Below are positions 2,268 through 43,459 of a stretch of DNA of 64,000 nucleotides, one piece after another. Made by a program: the position numbers and the translations under genes. This DNA is from an uncultured Alphaproteobacteria bacterium. Lineage in GTDB: Bacteria; Pseudomonadota; Alphaproteobacteria; Rs-D84. Positions within the stretch are counted from its first letter, which is position 1. Each line of letters starts with the position of its first letter. The notes under the pieces are model-generated. The model was not told the DNA's origin and made no database searches. It was given only the letters and a program-made list of their open reading frames with translations. The stretch covers positions 134,936 to 198,935 of the forward strand of contig CATOOF010000001.1 of NCBI GenBank assembly GCA_951801825.1, given 5' to 3'.

Positions 2268-4523
2268 TTATAATATATGGCGCTTGTTATTGGCGTCGGG
2301 CGCACTGACGATGCCTTCGGCCTCCATCCGTTCCATAAAAGTTGCCGCCTTGTTATAGCCTATTTGCAGACGGCGCTGGATATAAGAAATCGTGGGCTTT
2401 TTATCACGCAAAACACATTCCTTGGCCTGGGTGTACAAATCCGCATCCTTGTCGCCCTTGGTCGGGGTGTCCCCACCGGCCGCGCCAACGGCGGCGCCCG
2501 CATCGGCCGTATCATCGCCGTCGGTTACGCCATCCGCATACTCCGGCGCACCCTGGGCACGCAGAAAGTCGCCAATCTGGGCCAGTTCGTTATCGGAAAT
2601 AAACGCACCGTGTATTCGCACTGGAACACGGCCGGCCTCGCTGAACAGCATGTCGCCGCACGCCAGCAGGTTTTCCGCACCGCCCTCGCCCAGGGTCGTA
2701 CGCGAGTCGATATTACTGCGCGCCTGGAACGAAACACGCGTCGGAAAGTTGGCCTTGATAACACCTGTGATTGTCGTCGCGTCAGGACGCTGGGTCGCCA
2801 TAACCAGATGAATTCCGGCCGCACGGGCTTTTTGTGCGATACGCTGAACGCATGCCTCTACCTCTTTGCGGGCCAGACTCATCAAATCTGCAACCTCGTC
2901 AATTATAATGACGATATAGGGCATATCAGACAAATCAATTTCCTGGGTCTCGAACAACAGCTCGCCCGTTTCTTCATCCGTGCCGACGGCAACCTGGCGC
3001 GTTAACTTTTCGCCGGCCGCCCTCTTTTGCGCCGCCGTTTCATTATAGCTTTCAATATTGCGTGCATTAAGCACCTGCAGCTGCTTGTAACGCTCTTCCA
3101 TTTCACGCACCGCCCATTTCAGCGCATTGACAGCCGCCGACGGATCCAGTTTTACAATCGGCGTTATCAAGTGCGGAATATCATCCCAGAATCCAAAATC
3201 CACACCTTTTGGGTCGATAATTATCAGTTTGCATTTATCCGGTGAAAAATGATACACAATCGATGTTATAATCGACTGAACAAATACAGACTTGCCCGAC
3301 CCGGTACGACCAGCAATCATCATGTGGGGCATTTTTGCCAAATCGTAATACATTGGATTTCCGCCGATGTCCACCCCCAGCGCCAACGGTATTTTATATT
3401 TAGAATTTACAAATGTCGGATTTTCAATCAACCCGCGGAAACGCACCATCTGCGTTGTCAGATTAACCATTTCAACACCGATATAGTTGGTGCGCGGTAT
3501 GTGCGCAATACGTATGTTTTCTGTGGCCATGGCGCGGGTCATATCCTTTACCGTTTCGGTAATTTTAGCGATACGCATGCCCGTATCAGGTTCAAATTCA
3601 TACAGCGTCACAATTGGGCCCGGCTTTATCCCCGCCACTTTGCCGTATACGCCGAATTCCTCAAAATGATCCTCCAGCGACGCCGCGTTGCGCTTTAGTT
3701 CTGGCGTTACAACATTTTTGCCAAACGCAGATTTTTCCAAGAACGCCGGATCAGGATAACTATACTCGCCACCGGCGACGCGAACCGACGGCGCGGCCGA
3801 TGCGGCACGCTTTATTGCGCGCGTGCGTGTGCGGCGCGGCTTTTGCTCTTGCTCTTCTACATCGGGCTCTTGCGTTTCCTCTTCTTCTTCAACTTCTTCT
3901 ACATCGTCCGCATCAATGGATTCAGGCACAGGCGGCCGGGTTAAATGGAATACAGACATAATCCAAACCAAAAACCGCCATACGCGTCCTGCGGCGGCCC
4001 TGATATGCGACCATTTTATATGTAAAACACCCGCACCCATAATAAAAAACACACCTAAGAATAAAATACCAGGCAGCACGGTCCACGCCCCAACAAGAGA
4101 CACCATATCAGCCGACGCAACCGCCCCGGCCAGCCCCCCGAACGTATCGCCGGGCAAAATCATTCCCATACCGGCCGCACCCGCACACACCGCGATAAAC
4201 CCGCGCATAAAGTTATACTCAGGCGAATTTTCATCCCGCGCCCCGGTCAGCATAACCAACCCGCGACGCGACACACACAACATAACAAACAACGCTGGCA
4301 AAAAACCAATCAGATAGCGGACGGCGCCCACAGCGTTTCCCATAAAACCTTGCCGTCCCATTGTACTGGCGGCGGCAAAACCGTCCAAATACGGATTATG
4401 AAATACAAGCGCCGCCGTCATCCATACACCCAAAACAAAAATCACGGCGCCCAGTGCCCTAAATGCCAAACTTTTCAATGCACCGGAAACACTGTCCGGC
4501 AAAAACTTTGATTGCGTATCCAT
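2268..4523 (-). CDS. ftsK: DNA translocase FtsK
   Basis: FtsK is a septum-anchored hexameric motor that pumps chromosomal DNA and activates XerCD at dif. The N-terminus has about four hydrophobic segments (residues ~20-190), then an acidic, Arg-rich linker (~200-245). The motor domain has Walker A GRTGSGKS at ~405-412 and Walker B IIIDEVADLM near ~540. The last ~60 residues form the winged-helix gamma domain (from PTISYIQRRLQIGY on) that reads KOPS. At 751 aa it is compact for the family because the linker is short. It is the last gene of its strand before a terminator. Confidence 0.96.
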   Translation of the reverse strand: MDTQSKFLPDSVSGALKSLAFRALGAVIFVLGVWMTAALVFHNPYLDGFAAASTMGRQGFMGNAVGAVRYLIGFLPALFVMLCVSRRGLVMLTGARDENSPEYNFMRGFIAVCAGAAGMGMILPGDTFGGLAGAVASADMVSLVGAWTVLPGILFLGVFFIMGAGVLHIKWSHIRAAAGRVWRFLVWIMSVFHLTRPPVPESIDADDVEEVEEEEETQEPDVEEQEQKPRRTRTRAIKRAASAAPSVRVAGGEYSYPDPAFLEKSAFGKNVVTPELKRNAASLEDHFEEFGVYGKVAGIKPGPIVTLYEFEPDTGMRIAKITETVKDMTRAMATENIRIAHIPRTNYIGVEMVNLTTQMVRFRGLIENPTFVNSKYKIPLALGVDIGGNPMYYDLAKMPHMMIAGRTGSGKSVFVQSIITSIVYHFSPDKCKLIIIDPKGVDFGFWDDIPHLITPIVKLDPSAAVNALKWAVREMEERYKQLQVLNARNIESYNETAAQKRAAGEKLTRQVAVGTDEETGELLFETQEIDLSDMPYIVIIIDEVADLMSLARKEVEACVQRIAQKARAAGIHLVMATQRPDATTITGVIKANFPTRVSFQARSNIDSRTTLGEGGAENLLACGDMLFSEAGRVPVRIHGAFISDNELAQIGDFLRAQGAPEYADGVTDGDDTADAGAAVGAAGGDTPTKGDKDADLYTQAKECVLRDKKPTISYIQRRLQIGYNKAATFMERMEAEGIVSAPDANNKRHIL

Positions 4524-40483: not shown

Positions 40484-40512
40484 TTGATACATAAACGCAA
40501 TTAAATTATAAT
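40484..40512 (+). promoter_or_regulatory. Sigma-70-type promoter, leaderless start
   Basis: TTGATA (40484-40489), a 17-base spacer and TATAAT (40507-40512) are followed only seven bases later by the ATG of the lipoprotein gene at 40520, with no ribosome site. Transcription would begin at or next to the start codon. Confidence 0.7.
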
Positions 40513-40519
40513 AAAAATC

Positions 40520-40906
40520 ATGAGAATAAAATGCATAATGGCAATTTTTTGTTTGTTTGTGGCGGCATGTTCGTCACCGAACCGCGGCAGTATTGATGAC
40601 GCCACCGTCCTTAACTGGGAGAACGAGGCCGTAACAACCGAACAGTTTGTCCGCGATCACAAGGCGTGCCTGGGCATAACAAAACCATCATACCTGCCCC
40701 GGTCGCGTCTGGCAAAACTTATTGCCCCGAACCAGAGCGGCATGATGCCCGACTGGGACGGGCTGTGGGTAACGTTCCAGTCAAACGAATACAAGGACGT
40801 GGGCCAGCGCAGCCTGATGTCGGTACCACGCAACACAACATCAAAATCCGTTGGCTCTTACCGCAAATGCATGTTCCGCCGCGGATACCTGTTGCGTGCA
40901 ATGTAA
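40520..40906 (+). CDS. Small lipoprotein, 128 aa
   Basis: The signal peptide ends in the lipobox FVAACSS (Cys ~18). The mature part has two further Cys (KACLGIT, RKCMFRRGY), an aromatic DWDGLWVTFQ stretch and a basic C-terminus. The family is unknown. The start codon is predicted to lie at the transcription start (leaderless). ftsQ follows after about 50 bases with its own -10 element. Confidence 0.72.
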   Translation: MRIKCIMAIFCLFVAACSSPNRGSIDDATVLNWENEAVTTEQFVRDHKACLGITKPSYLPRSRLAKLIAPNQSGMMPDWDGLWVTFQSNEYKDVGQRSLMSVPRNTTSKSVGSYRKCMFRRGYLLRAM

Positions 40907-40959: not shown

Positions 40960-41640
40960 ATGAGACGCTCTATCTGGTTTTGGCTGTGCTTTATATTGTC
41001 AATTGTTTTGGCAACATATTTTGCCGTGCGAATAATTATGACCGCAATGGGTCACGGCAACGCGGCACGCGTTCGAACAATATCTATATCCGCAGATATG
41101 CGCGGCCCTGATTTGAATCCTGTGGCGACGGCCGCGGCGGTGGCCCCTGGAACCCACACGTACAAGGTTGACCTGGCCGCGCTGAACATGCGCATTGCCG
41201 CCACACCCGGCGTGCGCGACACGGCGGTACGCCGCATGCCAAACGGCAACCTTAAGGTAAAGGTAAAAATGCATCATGCCGTGGCCCAGTGGACGGACGG
41301 AACGGCGTATTTTCCTCTATCTGCGGACGGAACAATTGTAAAGCGGCCGACCGACACCCGTGATGTGTCGTCAATCGTTTTTCGCGGCCCCGTACCCGGG
41401 GACATATCCGAAATAACAAAGGCCGCGCACAACATGACTGGAAAATTGGATTACCTTGAATGGATTGAGGGGCGCCGCTGGAACATGCAGACAATCGGCG
41501 GCATAACCGTCATGTTGCCCGAAGAAAATCCGGCGGCCGCAATCGCGGGGCTTATGGTGCTGGATGAAAAGCATAACCTGCTGTCGCGCGACATCTCTGT
41601 AATCGACATGCGTGACGAGGCCCGCATATTGGTAAAATAA
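40960..41640 (+). CDS. ftsQ: Cell division protein FtsQ
   Basis: FtsQ links early and late divisome proteins in the periplasm. This is a short cytoplasmic start, one membrane helix (IWFWLCFILSIVLATYFAV) and a POTRA/FtsQ domain with AATPGVRDTAVRRMPNGNLKVKV, AVAQWTDGTAYFPLSADGTIV and a C-terminal ISVIDMRDEARILVK. It is short (226 aa) compared with typical ~250-300 aa FtsQ. ftsA lies four bases downstream. The rest of the dcw cluster (murC, ddl, ftsZ) is not adjacent. Confidence 0.82.
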   Translation: MRRSIWFWLCFILSIVLATYFAVRIIMTAMGHGNAARVRTISISADMRGPDLNPVATAAAVAPGTHTYKVDLAALNMRIAATPGVRDTAVRRMPNGNLKVKVKMHHAVAQWTDGTAYFPLSADGTIVKRPTDTRDVSSIVFRGPVPGDISEITKAAHNMTGKLDYLEWIEGRRWNMQTIGGITVMLPEENPAAAIAGLMVLDEKHNLLSRDISVIDMRDEARILVK

Positions 41641-41644
41641 AAAA

Positions 41645-43429
41645 GTGAACCTGTTTGATTCATCTTTTCTGTGCCTGGATATAGGCGCCGCGGGCGTACG
41701 CGGATGTGCGCATCGCGTTCGCAACGCACGCATCGACAAATCGGCCGTATTCGCAATGGACAGCCGCGACACCGTATACGCATTAAAATCAGTGATTGAC
41801 GAACTGGAACGCCAAATAGGCGCACATTTCGACGCGGCGTATGTAACAGGCGATTTCGGCGCCGCACATTTTGAAATGACCGCAAAAAGCACCACATGGG
41901 GTGGCGAACATAAAATCACCCCGTCTGATGTTCGTGCTCAAATAGCACAAATTACCGCACCCGACGGATTTTATCCAATGCATATCGTGCCATTGCGCTA
42001 TGACACGCCGGGGGCCCGGAACATAATATCGCCCATGGGCCACACGGACCACGCACTGATATCCGCGTTTGGCGCAATATTCTATGACCAGTCTCGCCTG
42101 GATGAAATAACCGCGGCAATGCGCCGTGCGCACATCCAGGCCGCCGGATTTTTCGACCCTCATTTTCTTGTCAGCGCCACGTTGCGCCGCCCGCATGAAA
42201 ACATAATGATTGTTGATTTGGGGGATGCGTTTACAACGGCATCCATCTGGACGGACCGCGGACCGGTAATGCTGAAAAAACTGCCAATCGGCGGTGCCAA
42301 AATAACATCTGATATTGCGGACAAAATGCAGCTGGATTCGGACGCCGCCCAACGGGTAAAACGTGCCGTTGCATCATTGGCCCCCCAGGAAATGGACCGG
42401 TTTACCCCGGCCGACCCGGCATATGATTTTTCACGTGCCGACATAAACGAAATAATTTTGCCGCGCATGGTTGAAATTGCCGGCCTGATAAAAGACGCGG
42501 CATCGGCGGCTATTACAAAATACCGCCCGTCCAGAATATTGCTGTCCGGCGGCGGCGCCGAGATGGCGGGCGTTTGCGAATTTTTTGAAAATATTTTTTC
42601 CATTCCCACGCAAAAGCTGCCCTATGACACGGGTCCGCGCGCATTGGCGGCGCACATCTGGTCATTGCAGAAACCGCGAATTGCGGCCGCACTGCGCCGC
42701 CAGGAAAAATGGCTGCGGCGCACGGACTGGCTGCGGCGTGTCACACATATCAAACCCCGCCGGCACGCGCGCCCACGGTTCATCCCTATAATGCCCAGCA
42801 CATTGTGCTTTAACATGCGCCGGCCTGAAACATACACCCTGTTTAAGTCAGGCGGTATATCAATGATTCACGTTGACATAATGGATGGCTTTTATGTCGA
42901 CCGCATTGCGGGCAGTATTGCCGAATTAAAACAAATCCGCGCCAAAACCACCGCGCATCTGCACGTGCATTTAATGACGGAAAGTCCGTCTGTCTGGGCG
43001 GCGGATGCAATCGCGGCCGGGGCGGATACGGTCGTGGTATCTACAAACACATCCGGACTGCGCGCGGCCCTGCGCGAAATAAAGGCTGCCGGACGACGCG
43101 CGGGCGTGGCACTGAACCCGGATTCGTCCGTTGCGATATTAAAGCCTGTTTTGCGCGAAATAGACGAAGTGATGGTAATGTCTGTGGCCCCGGGCGCGGC
43201 GGGTCAGAAATTTGATTCCGACGCGATAAAAAAGATATCCGTATTAAATGCGACACGAAAAAAATACGGGCTGAAATTTACAATATCGGTCGACGGCGGA
43301 ATAAACGCCGATACCGCCCCAGAATGCTGGGCCGCCGGGGCGGACACACTGGTATCGGGTTCGTATCTGGCACGCAGTGCGGACTTTCCACTGGCCGTGC
43401 AAAGTCTGTTGCCCGATGCAAAAAAATAA
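41645..43429 (+). CDS. FtsA-like division ATPase fused to ribulose-phosphate 3-epimerase
   Basis: One open frame of 594 codons. Residues ~1-350 are FtsA-like: the actin-type phosphate loop (FLCLDIGAAGVRG), the second phosphate loop DLGDAFTTASIW (~191-202), IGGAKITSDIADKM and adenosine motif ILLSGGGAEMAGV. An amphipathic, Trp/Arg-rich helix (~353-369) matches the FtsA membrane-targeting tip. Residues ~378-594 are a complete Rpe barrel: PSTL, IHVDIMDG (His409, Asp411), HVHLM (His442) and SVDGGIN (Asp550), so the metal ligands are kept. GTG start; no ribosome site precedes the internal Met383. ftsQ is directly upstream and a terminator directly downstream. Confidence 0.85.
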   Translation: MNLFDSSFLCLDIGAAGVRGCAHRVRNARIDKSAVFAMDSRDTVYALKSVIDELERQIGAHFDAAYVTGDFGAAHFEMTAKSTTWGGEHKITPSDVRAQIAQITAPDGFYPMHIVPLRYDTPGARNIISPMGHTDHALISAFGAIFYDQSRLDEITAAMRRAHIQAAGFFDPHFLVSATLRRPHENIMIVDLGDAFTTASIWTDRGPVMLKKLPIGGAKITSDIADKMQLDSDAAQRVKRAVASLAPQEMDRFTPADPAYDFSRADINEIILPRMVEIAGLIKDAASAAITKYRPSRILLSGGGAEMAGVCEFFENIFSIPTQKLPYDTGPRALAAHIWSLQKPRIAAALRRQEKWLRRTDWLRRVTHIKPRRHARPRFIPIMPSTLCFNMRRPETYTLFKSGGISMIHVDIMDGFYVDRIAGSIAELKQIRAKTTAHLHVHLMTESPSVWAADAIAAGADTVVVSTNTSGLRAALREIKAAGRRAGVALNPDSSVAILKPVLREIDEVMVMSVAPGAAGQKFDSDAIKKISVLNATRKKYGLKFTISVDGGINADTAPECWAAGADTLVSGSYLARSADFPLAVQSLLPDAKK

Positions 43430-43459
43430 ATCCCGGAAATATCCGGGATTTATTTTTTT
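43428..43459. terminator. Bidirectional terminator after the ftsA-rpe fusion
   Basis: AAATCCCGGA (43428-43437) and TCCGGGATTT (43442-43451) form a ten-base-pair stem. It is followed by a seven-T run on the plus strand and an A-rich tract on the other side, so it could also end a minus-strand transcript. Confidence 0.85.

Follow-up and report, generated by a model that had tools for sequence, protein, structure and literature searches.

The window analysed here, a stretch of 64,000 nucleotides from an uncultured alphaproteobacterium of the Rs-D84 lineage, contains on its forward strand a gene (41645..43429) in which ftsA and rpe are joined in a single open frame that runs from a GTG start to a TAA stop and encodes 594 aa. 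The fusion is real and no assembly error, and the family that carries it appears to have lost FtsZ. On balance we favour a bifunctional, membrane-tethered FtsA–Rpe that would work in an FtsZ-independent division machinery with its epimerase active.

The encoded chain showed Pfam matches to FtsA at residues 189–322 (42.2 bits; PF14450 cut-off 31.8) and to Ribul_P_3_epim (PF00834) at residues 395–575 (148.5 bits versus a cut-off of 21.1), and the in-frame joining of the two genes, proposed earlier from the sequence alone, was confirmed by the open 594-aa frame together with these matches to both halves. The AlphaFold2 model of FtsA–Rpe (pLDDT 91.5, pTM 0.60) contains two well-built domains with a disordered stretch at residues 369–376 between them, and at this pTM the model does not fix the arrangement of the domains. 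The junction had been placed at residues 370–378, which coincides with this sole internal low-confidence stretch. The junction linker (residues 367–378; 42743..42778, + strand) is predicted to be disordered, with pLDDT <50 at 369–376, and was always open. The mean pairwise identity over residues 346–378 was 27%, and the linker was found to be the least conserved part of the fusion and variable in length.

Of 24 genomes from the same genus, the source genome counted, 23 carry the uninterrupted fusion, as do 71 species loci from an independent collection; 70 of these loci were complete or nearly so, the remaining one, L124, is cut by a contig end, and L135 is an additional fragment outside this count. 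A profile of the fusion matched 175 of the 183 family genomes across 13 genera, and among the matches listed the frame was open over at least 590 aa. These are Rs-D84-type Alphaproteobacteria, namely “Candidatus Enterousia” and 12 other genera, and the named loci include those of Candidatus Enterousia spp. and of Alphaproteobacteria sampled from animal guts, among them those of chicken, horse and ruminants. Enterousia has been placed in the alphaproteobacterial order Rs-D84, with reduced genomes of ~1 Mb (PMC12306168). Seven of the eight family genomes without a fusion match are 60–87% complete; G121, a genome of the genus that is 95% complete, was also without a match. The identity between homologues decreased to 32% with the frame and the catalytic residues still kept. 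The dN/dS ratios were 0.07–0.10 for the FtsA half and 0.04–0.13 for the Rpe half, and both halves are separately under strong constraint. A search of related genomes for the same fusion, as suggested in the sequence-only reading, found it uninterrupted in nearly every genome of the family, and separate ftsA and rpe genes outside the family only. The stable genomic fusion that this reading had considered is supported by the recurrence of the uninterrupted join across the family with the Rpe catalytic residues intact.

The FtsA-type actin domain (residues 1–341; 41645..42667, + strand) contains the FtsA-specific 1C subdomain and the ATP-binding loops. Residues 6–341 of the model matched FtsA (7q6f) with a VIA Z of 33, as against 25 for PilM and 22 for MreB. 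The phosphate and adenosine loops are conserved (G14 in 48/48, D191 in 47/48 and G302 in 48/48), and the ATP-binding loops are more strictly conserved in the fusion family than elsewhere in the order. The FtsA half scored below the TIGR01174 equivalog cut-off (81 versus 175.85 bits) and has thus diverged; by its fold and gene order it is a diverged member of the FtsA type and no canonical equivalog. The only other PF14450 match of the source genome, considered as a second ftsA, turned out to be MreB, and the fusion is the only ftsA of this genome. The 2B loop is ~10 residues shorter than that of E. coli FtsA, and the position equivalent to E. coli FtsA R300, which we take to be important for FtsZ binding, is not conserved in the fusion family; both features would fit a loss of FtsZ, short of proof. 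The C-terminal FtsA helix (residues 343–366; 42671..42742, + strand) was described earlier as an amphipathic membrane-targeting helix. A strongly basic helix is indeed predicted there by AlphaFold2 and its possible role in membrane targeting is plausible; its hydrophobic moment (0.72) was little above and not statistically distinct from that of shuffled sequences (0.63 ± 0.13). When compared with known FtsA (TIGR01174/PF14450; 1e4g, 7q6d, 7q6f), the protein shares the actin fold, the 1C subdomain, the ATP loops, the C-terminal helix and a gene position behind ftsQ, whereas it differs in having a whole enzyme at its C-terminus, no detectable FtsZ partner, the shorter 2B loop and the score below TIGR01174.

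The Rpe half (residues 379–594; 42779..43426, + strand) is a complete ribulose-phosphate 3-epimerase barrel as judged by the structure match and PF00834, and in the model it aligned with 2fli at a VIA Z of 33.7 and an rmsd of 1.4 Å. The ligands His409, Asp411, His442 and Asp550 are at the residues assigned to them earlier and, like Ser385, are conserved in 48 of 48 aligned homologues. The half scored below the TIGR01163 equivalog cut-off (155.3 versus 212.6 bits) and above that of the subfamily NF004076 (168.6 versus 165 bits). A second rpe was sought elsewhere in the source genome by PF00834 profile search and none was found; the single match is the fusion, which is thus the only rpe, and the genomes of the genus have at most one match each. 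Of 24 genomes of the genus, 21 have a transketolase, and the non-oxidative steps of the pentose-phosphate pathway have been reported for this lineage, with transaldolase missing from most genomes (PMC12306168), so Rpe has a partner enzyme. The Rpe half is most likely a working epimerase and the only Rpe of the cell. It resembles known ribulose-phosphate 3-epimerases (PF00834; 2fli, 1rpx) in its complete barrel and in all catalytic and metal ligands, and unlike them it is covalently placed behind an FtsA actin in a genome without a free copy.

The fusion gene is preceded at a distance of 5 bases by ftsQ (40960..41640, + strand; 226 aa; FtsQ_DivIB_C 1.8e-7 in Pfam), and this immediate neighbourhood, pointed out in the sequence-only reading, holds for 65 of 65 homologous loci tested, each with an ftsQ-type ORF directly upstream. 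A possible sigma-70-like promoter of the operon (40484..40512, + strand; TTGATA-17-TATAAT) is a consensus match only, of a kind found 8 times with 4.1 expected. A likely intrinsic terminator, a hairpin with a T-run after the stop (43425..43459, + strand; −17.6 kcal/mol, z −4.6), was detected by folding and was not picked up by the terminator pattern scan. The same window also contains a small lipoprotein-like ORF without a family match upstream of ftsQ (40520–40906, + strand) and an ftsK of 751 aa (2268–4523, − strand).

FtsZ is the division protein of almost all bacteria, and FtsA is known as its anchor. In profile searches with TIGR00065, FtsZ was found in none of the 183 family genomes, including a single-contig genome that is 99% complete, and each of the 18 genomes from the remaining families of the order gave a hit (16 over the cut-off). 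A search for the tubulin family (PF00091) at E ≤ 10 across 141 genomes of the genus gave no match over the cut-off; four weak matches, considered as a divergent FtsZ, were unrelated ORFs with no shared candidate. The absence of FtsZ is based on targeted stretches and profile searches, and the earlier remark that ftsZ is not adjacent to the fusion was true but understated, as these searches recovered no ftsZ from the genome or from any other member of the family. FtsQ, FtsW, an FtsI-like PBP, FtsK, MreB, RodA and PBP2 are kept in the fusion family; control searches of the same genomes recovered FtsW and RodA, two PBP-dimer proteins, MreB, and FtsK in 24 of 24. In the source genome, the gene of the second SEDS protein is flanked by mraY and a murG-like ORF and its product scored best against FtsW, and the second PBP is FtsI-like. 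The FtsZ proteins of other families have tails with LEIPAIFKK or LDIPAVFRK-type ends, as expected for FtsA binding, and so the FtsA-FtsZ pair was probably ancestral. Because the genome is without a detectable FtsZ, there is no evidence for a Z-ring, and with FtsZ apparently lost, division in these cells is probably unusual. Elsewhere in the order, the genome G027 (family f5) contains an FtsZ-like ORF (L047, 1168–2394) at 31 bits without a recognisable glycine-rich GTP loop, no FtsA match except a probable MreB, and no rpe match; FtsZ may thus be in decay in another family of the order too. In a genome of family f4 (G034:C11, L166), phage-like ORFs adjoin ftsZ.

The other families of the same order have ftsA and rpe as separate genes, which in three of these families abut or lie within ~17 bases of each other. 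In f3 and f6, the stop codon of ftsA overlaps with or directly adjoins the start codon of rpe, as in L053 (f3), CTGTAATGAAG, L050 (f6), TATAATG, and L060, TTATGAAG. In f2, the likely rpe ATG follows the ftsA stop after ~17 bases, and in f4 an ABC-transporter-like gene is located between ftsA and rpe or beside ftsA. This gene, which encodes ~590–610 aa, adjoins ftsA in L051, L052 and L055–L059 (f4) and intervenes between ftsA and rpe in several of them. In the families with separate genes, several FtsA proteins have a short helix-forming tail at their C-terminus, e.g., KVKNWIKEHL. Since ftsA and rpe are already neighbours in the relatives, a fusion needs little beyond the loss of a stop. The fused Rpe proteins form one clade in the tree (support 99/97), and support for placing them with the unfused Rpe proteins found elsewhere in the order is weak (69/83); because of this weak placement, orthology with the latter rests on gene order. 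The fusion probably arose a single time, when the stop separating the two neighbours was lost at the base of the family, and has been kept since.

An assembly or frameshift artefact was considered since the source sequence is a metagenome-type assembly, and a frameshift or missing-stop error was rejected because the same open join recurs in assemblies of independent origin that cover several hosts and collections; no stop codon was found at the junction in any family homologue read, and the probability of an artefact is negligible. That internal initiation or proteolysis yields separate FtsA and Rpe, leaving a fusion at the gene level only, would agree with the disordered linker of the model and with the ATG or TTG that 40 of 63 species have one codon ahead of PSTL. 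The ATG, however, falls within the first barrel strand (FIPIMPSTL), whose residues before the ATG are conserved as well, so that an internal start would remove this strand; in 10 species the 45 codons preceding the barrel contain no in-frame start, and no Shine-Dalgarno sequence for the internal ATG was found in the window. A separate internal rpe start was rejected as not conserved across species, production of two chains is considered unlikely, and a single chain, uncut after translation, would be the simplest reading. An FtsZ that is present but beyond the reach of the profiles, and still anchored by FtsA–Rpe, might be envisaged from the 31-bit ORF of G027, which belongs to another family and has no visible glycine-rich GTP loop. 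Nevertheless, a GTP-binding FtsZ would be hard to overlook, and the four unrelated weak matches in 141 genomes gave no shared candidate; a hidden FtsZ is considered unlikely too.

Under the preferred reading, the operon ftsQ–(ftsA-rpe) would yield one bifunctional polypeptide, of which the Rpe half would supply the sole Rpe activity of the cell and the FtsA half would act in the division apparatus as an ATP-binding, membrane-attached actin, connecting FtsQ/FtsW/FtsI with the cytoplasm in the absence of FtsZ. A tolerated fusion, in which the halves keep their old unrelated jobs and the joining by itself serves no purpose, is consistent with most of this explanation and denies only that the link matters; it would persist because the join does no harm to either half and small genomes rarely split fused genes again, and we regard it as quite possible. 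The poor conservation and variable length of the linker, the nearly or directly back-to-back translation of both genes in the order's other families and the separate constraint on each half agree with it, but no split was seen in ~175 genomes of 13 genera despite the low identity, and the fusion coincides with the loss of FtsZ. Tolerated fusion and functional coupling are about equally likely. The FtsA half may alternatively have left division and serve only as a membrane anchor for Rpe, e.g., beside transketolase or a transporter, as could be thought from the missing classical partner FtsZ, the unconserved R300 equivalent and the shortened 2B loop. The strictly kept ATP loops, needless for an inert anchor, and the constant ftsQ neighbour speak for a continued part in division and against anchoring alone, and FtsW, the FtsI-like PBP and FtsK are retained, which leaves the anchor an improbable alternative. 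Rpe oligomerises in other organisms. More speculatively, and with a rather low probability, FtsA–Rpe itself could be the cytoplasmic scaffold of a division ring that works without FtsZ, in which ATP-dependent filaments of the FtsA half at the membrane would be cross-linked by Rpe and their assembly gated by the pentose-phosphate level; one protein would then replace the Z-ring and sense metabolism.

The metabolic enzymes UgtP, OpgH, GdhZ and KidO regulate division as separate proteins acting on FtsZ. The resemblance to FtsA–Rpe would be that a metabolic protein acts on the cytoplasmic division machinery or is linked to it; the difference is that here the enzyme is a part of the FtsA chain. Division without FtsZ has been described in Chlamydia and Planctomycetes (PMC11975371, PMC7029139, PMC5147048). 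Like these bacteria, the fusion family has no detectable FtsZ and keeps SEDS/PBP pairs, FtsK and MreB; unlike them, it is alphaproteobacterial and has kept FtsA, fused to an enzyme. No report of an FtsA–Rpe fusion or of FtsZ loss in Rs-D84/Enterousia was found in the literature, mainly that outside subscription journals, and the words ftsZ, ftsA and division are absent from the study of the reduced genomes of this lineage (PMC12306168). An alphaproteobacterial family common in animal guts joins the few bacteria that seemingly divide without FtsZ. A lineage having FtsA, FtsQ, FtsW and FtsK without FtsZ, with its FtsA fused to an enzyme, is a natural experiment on FtsA alone, and FtsA–Rpe offers a concrete protein for probing the link between metabolism and division.
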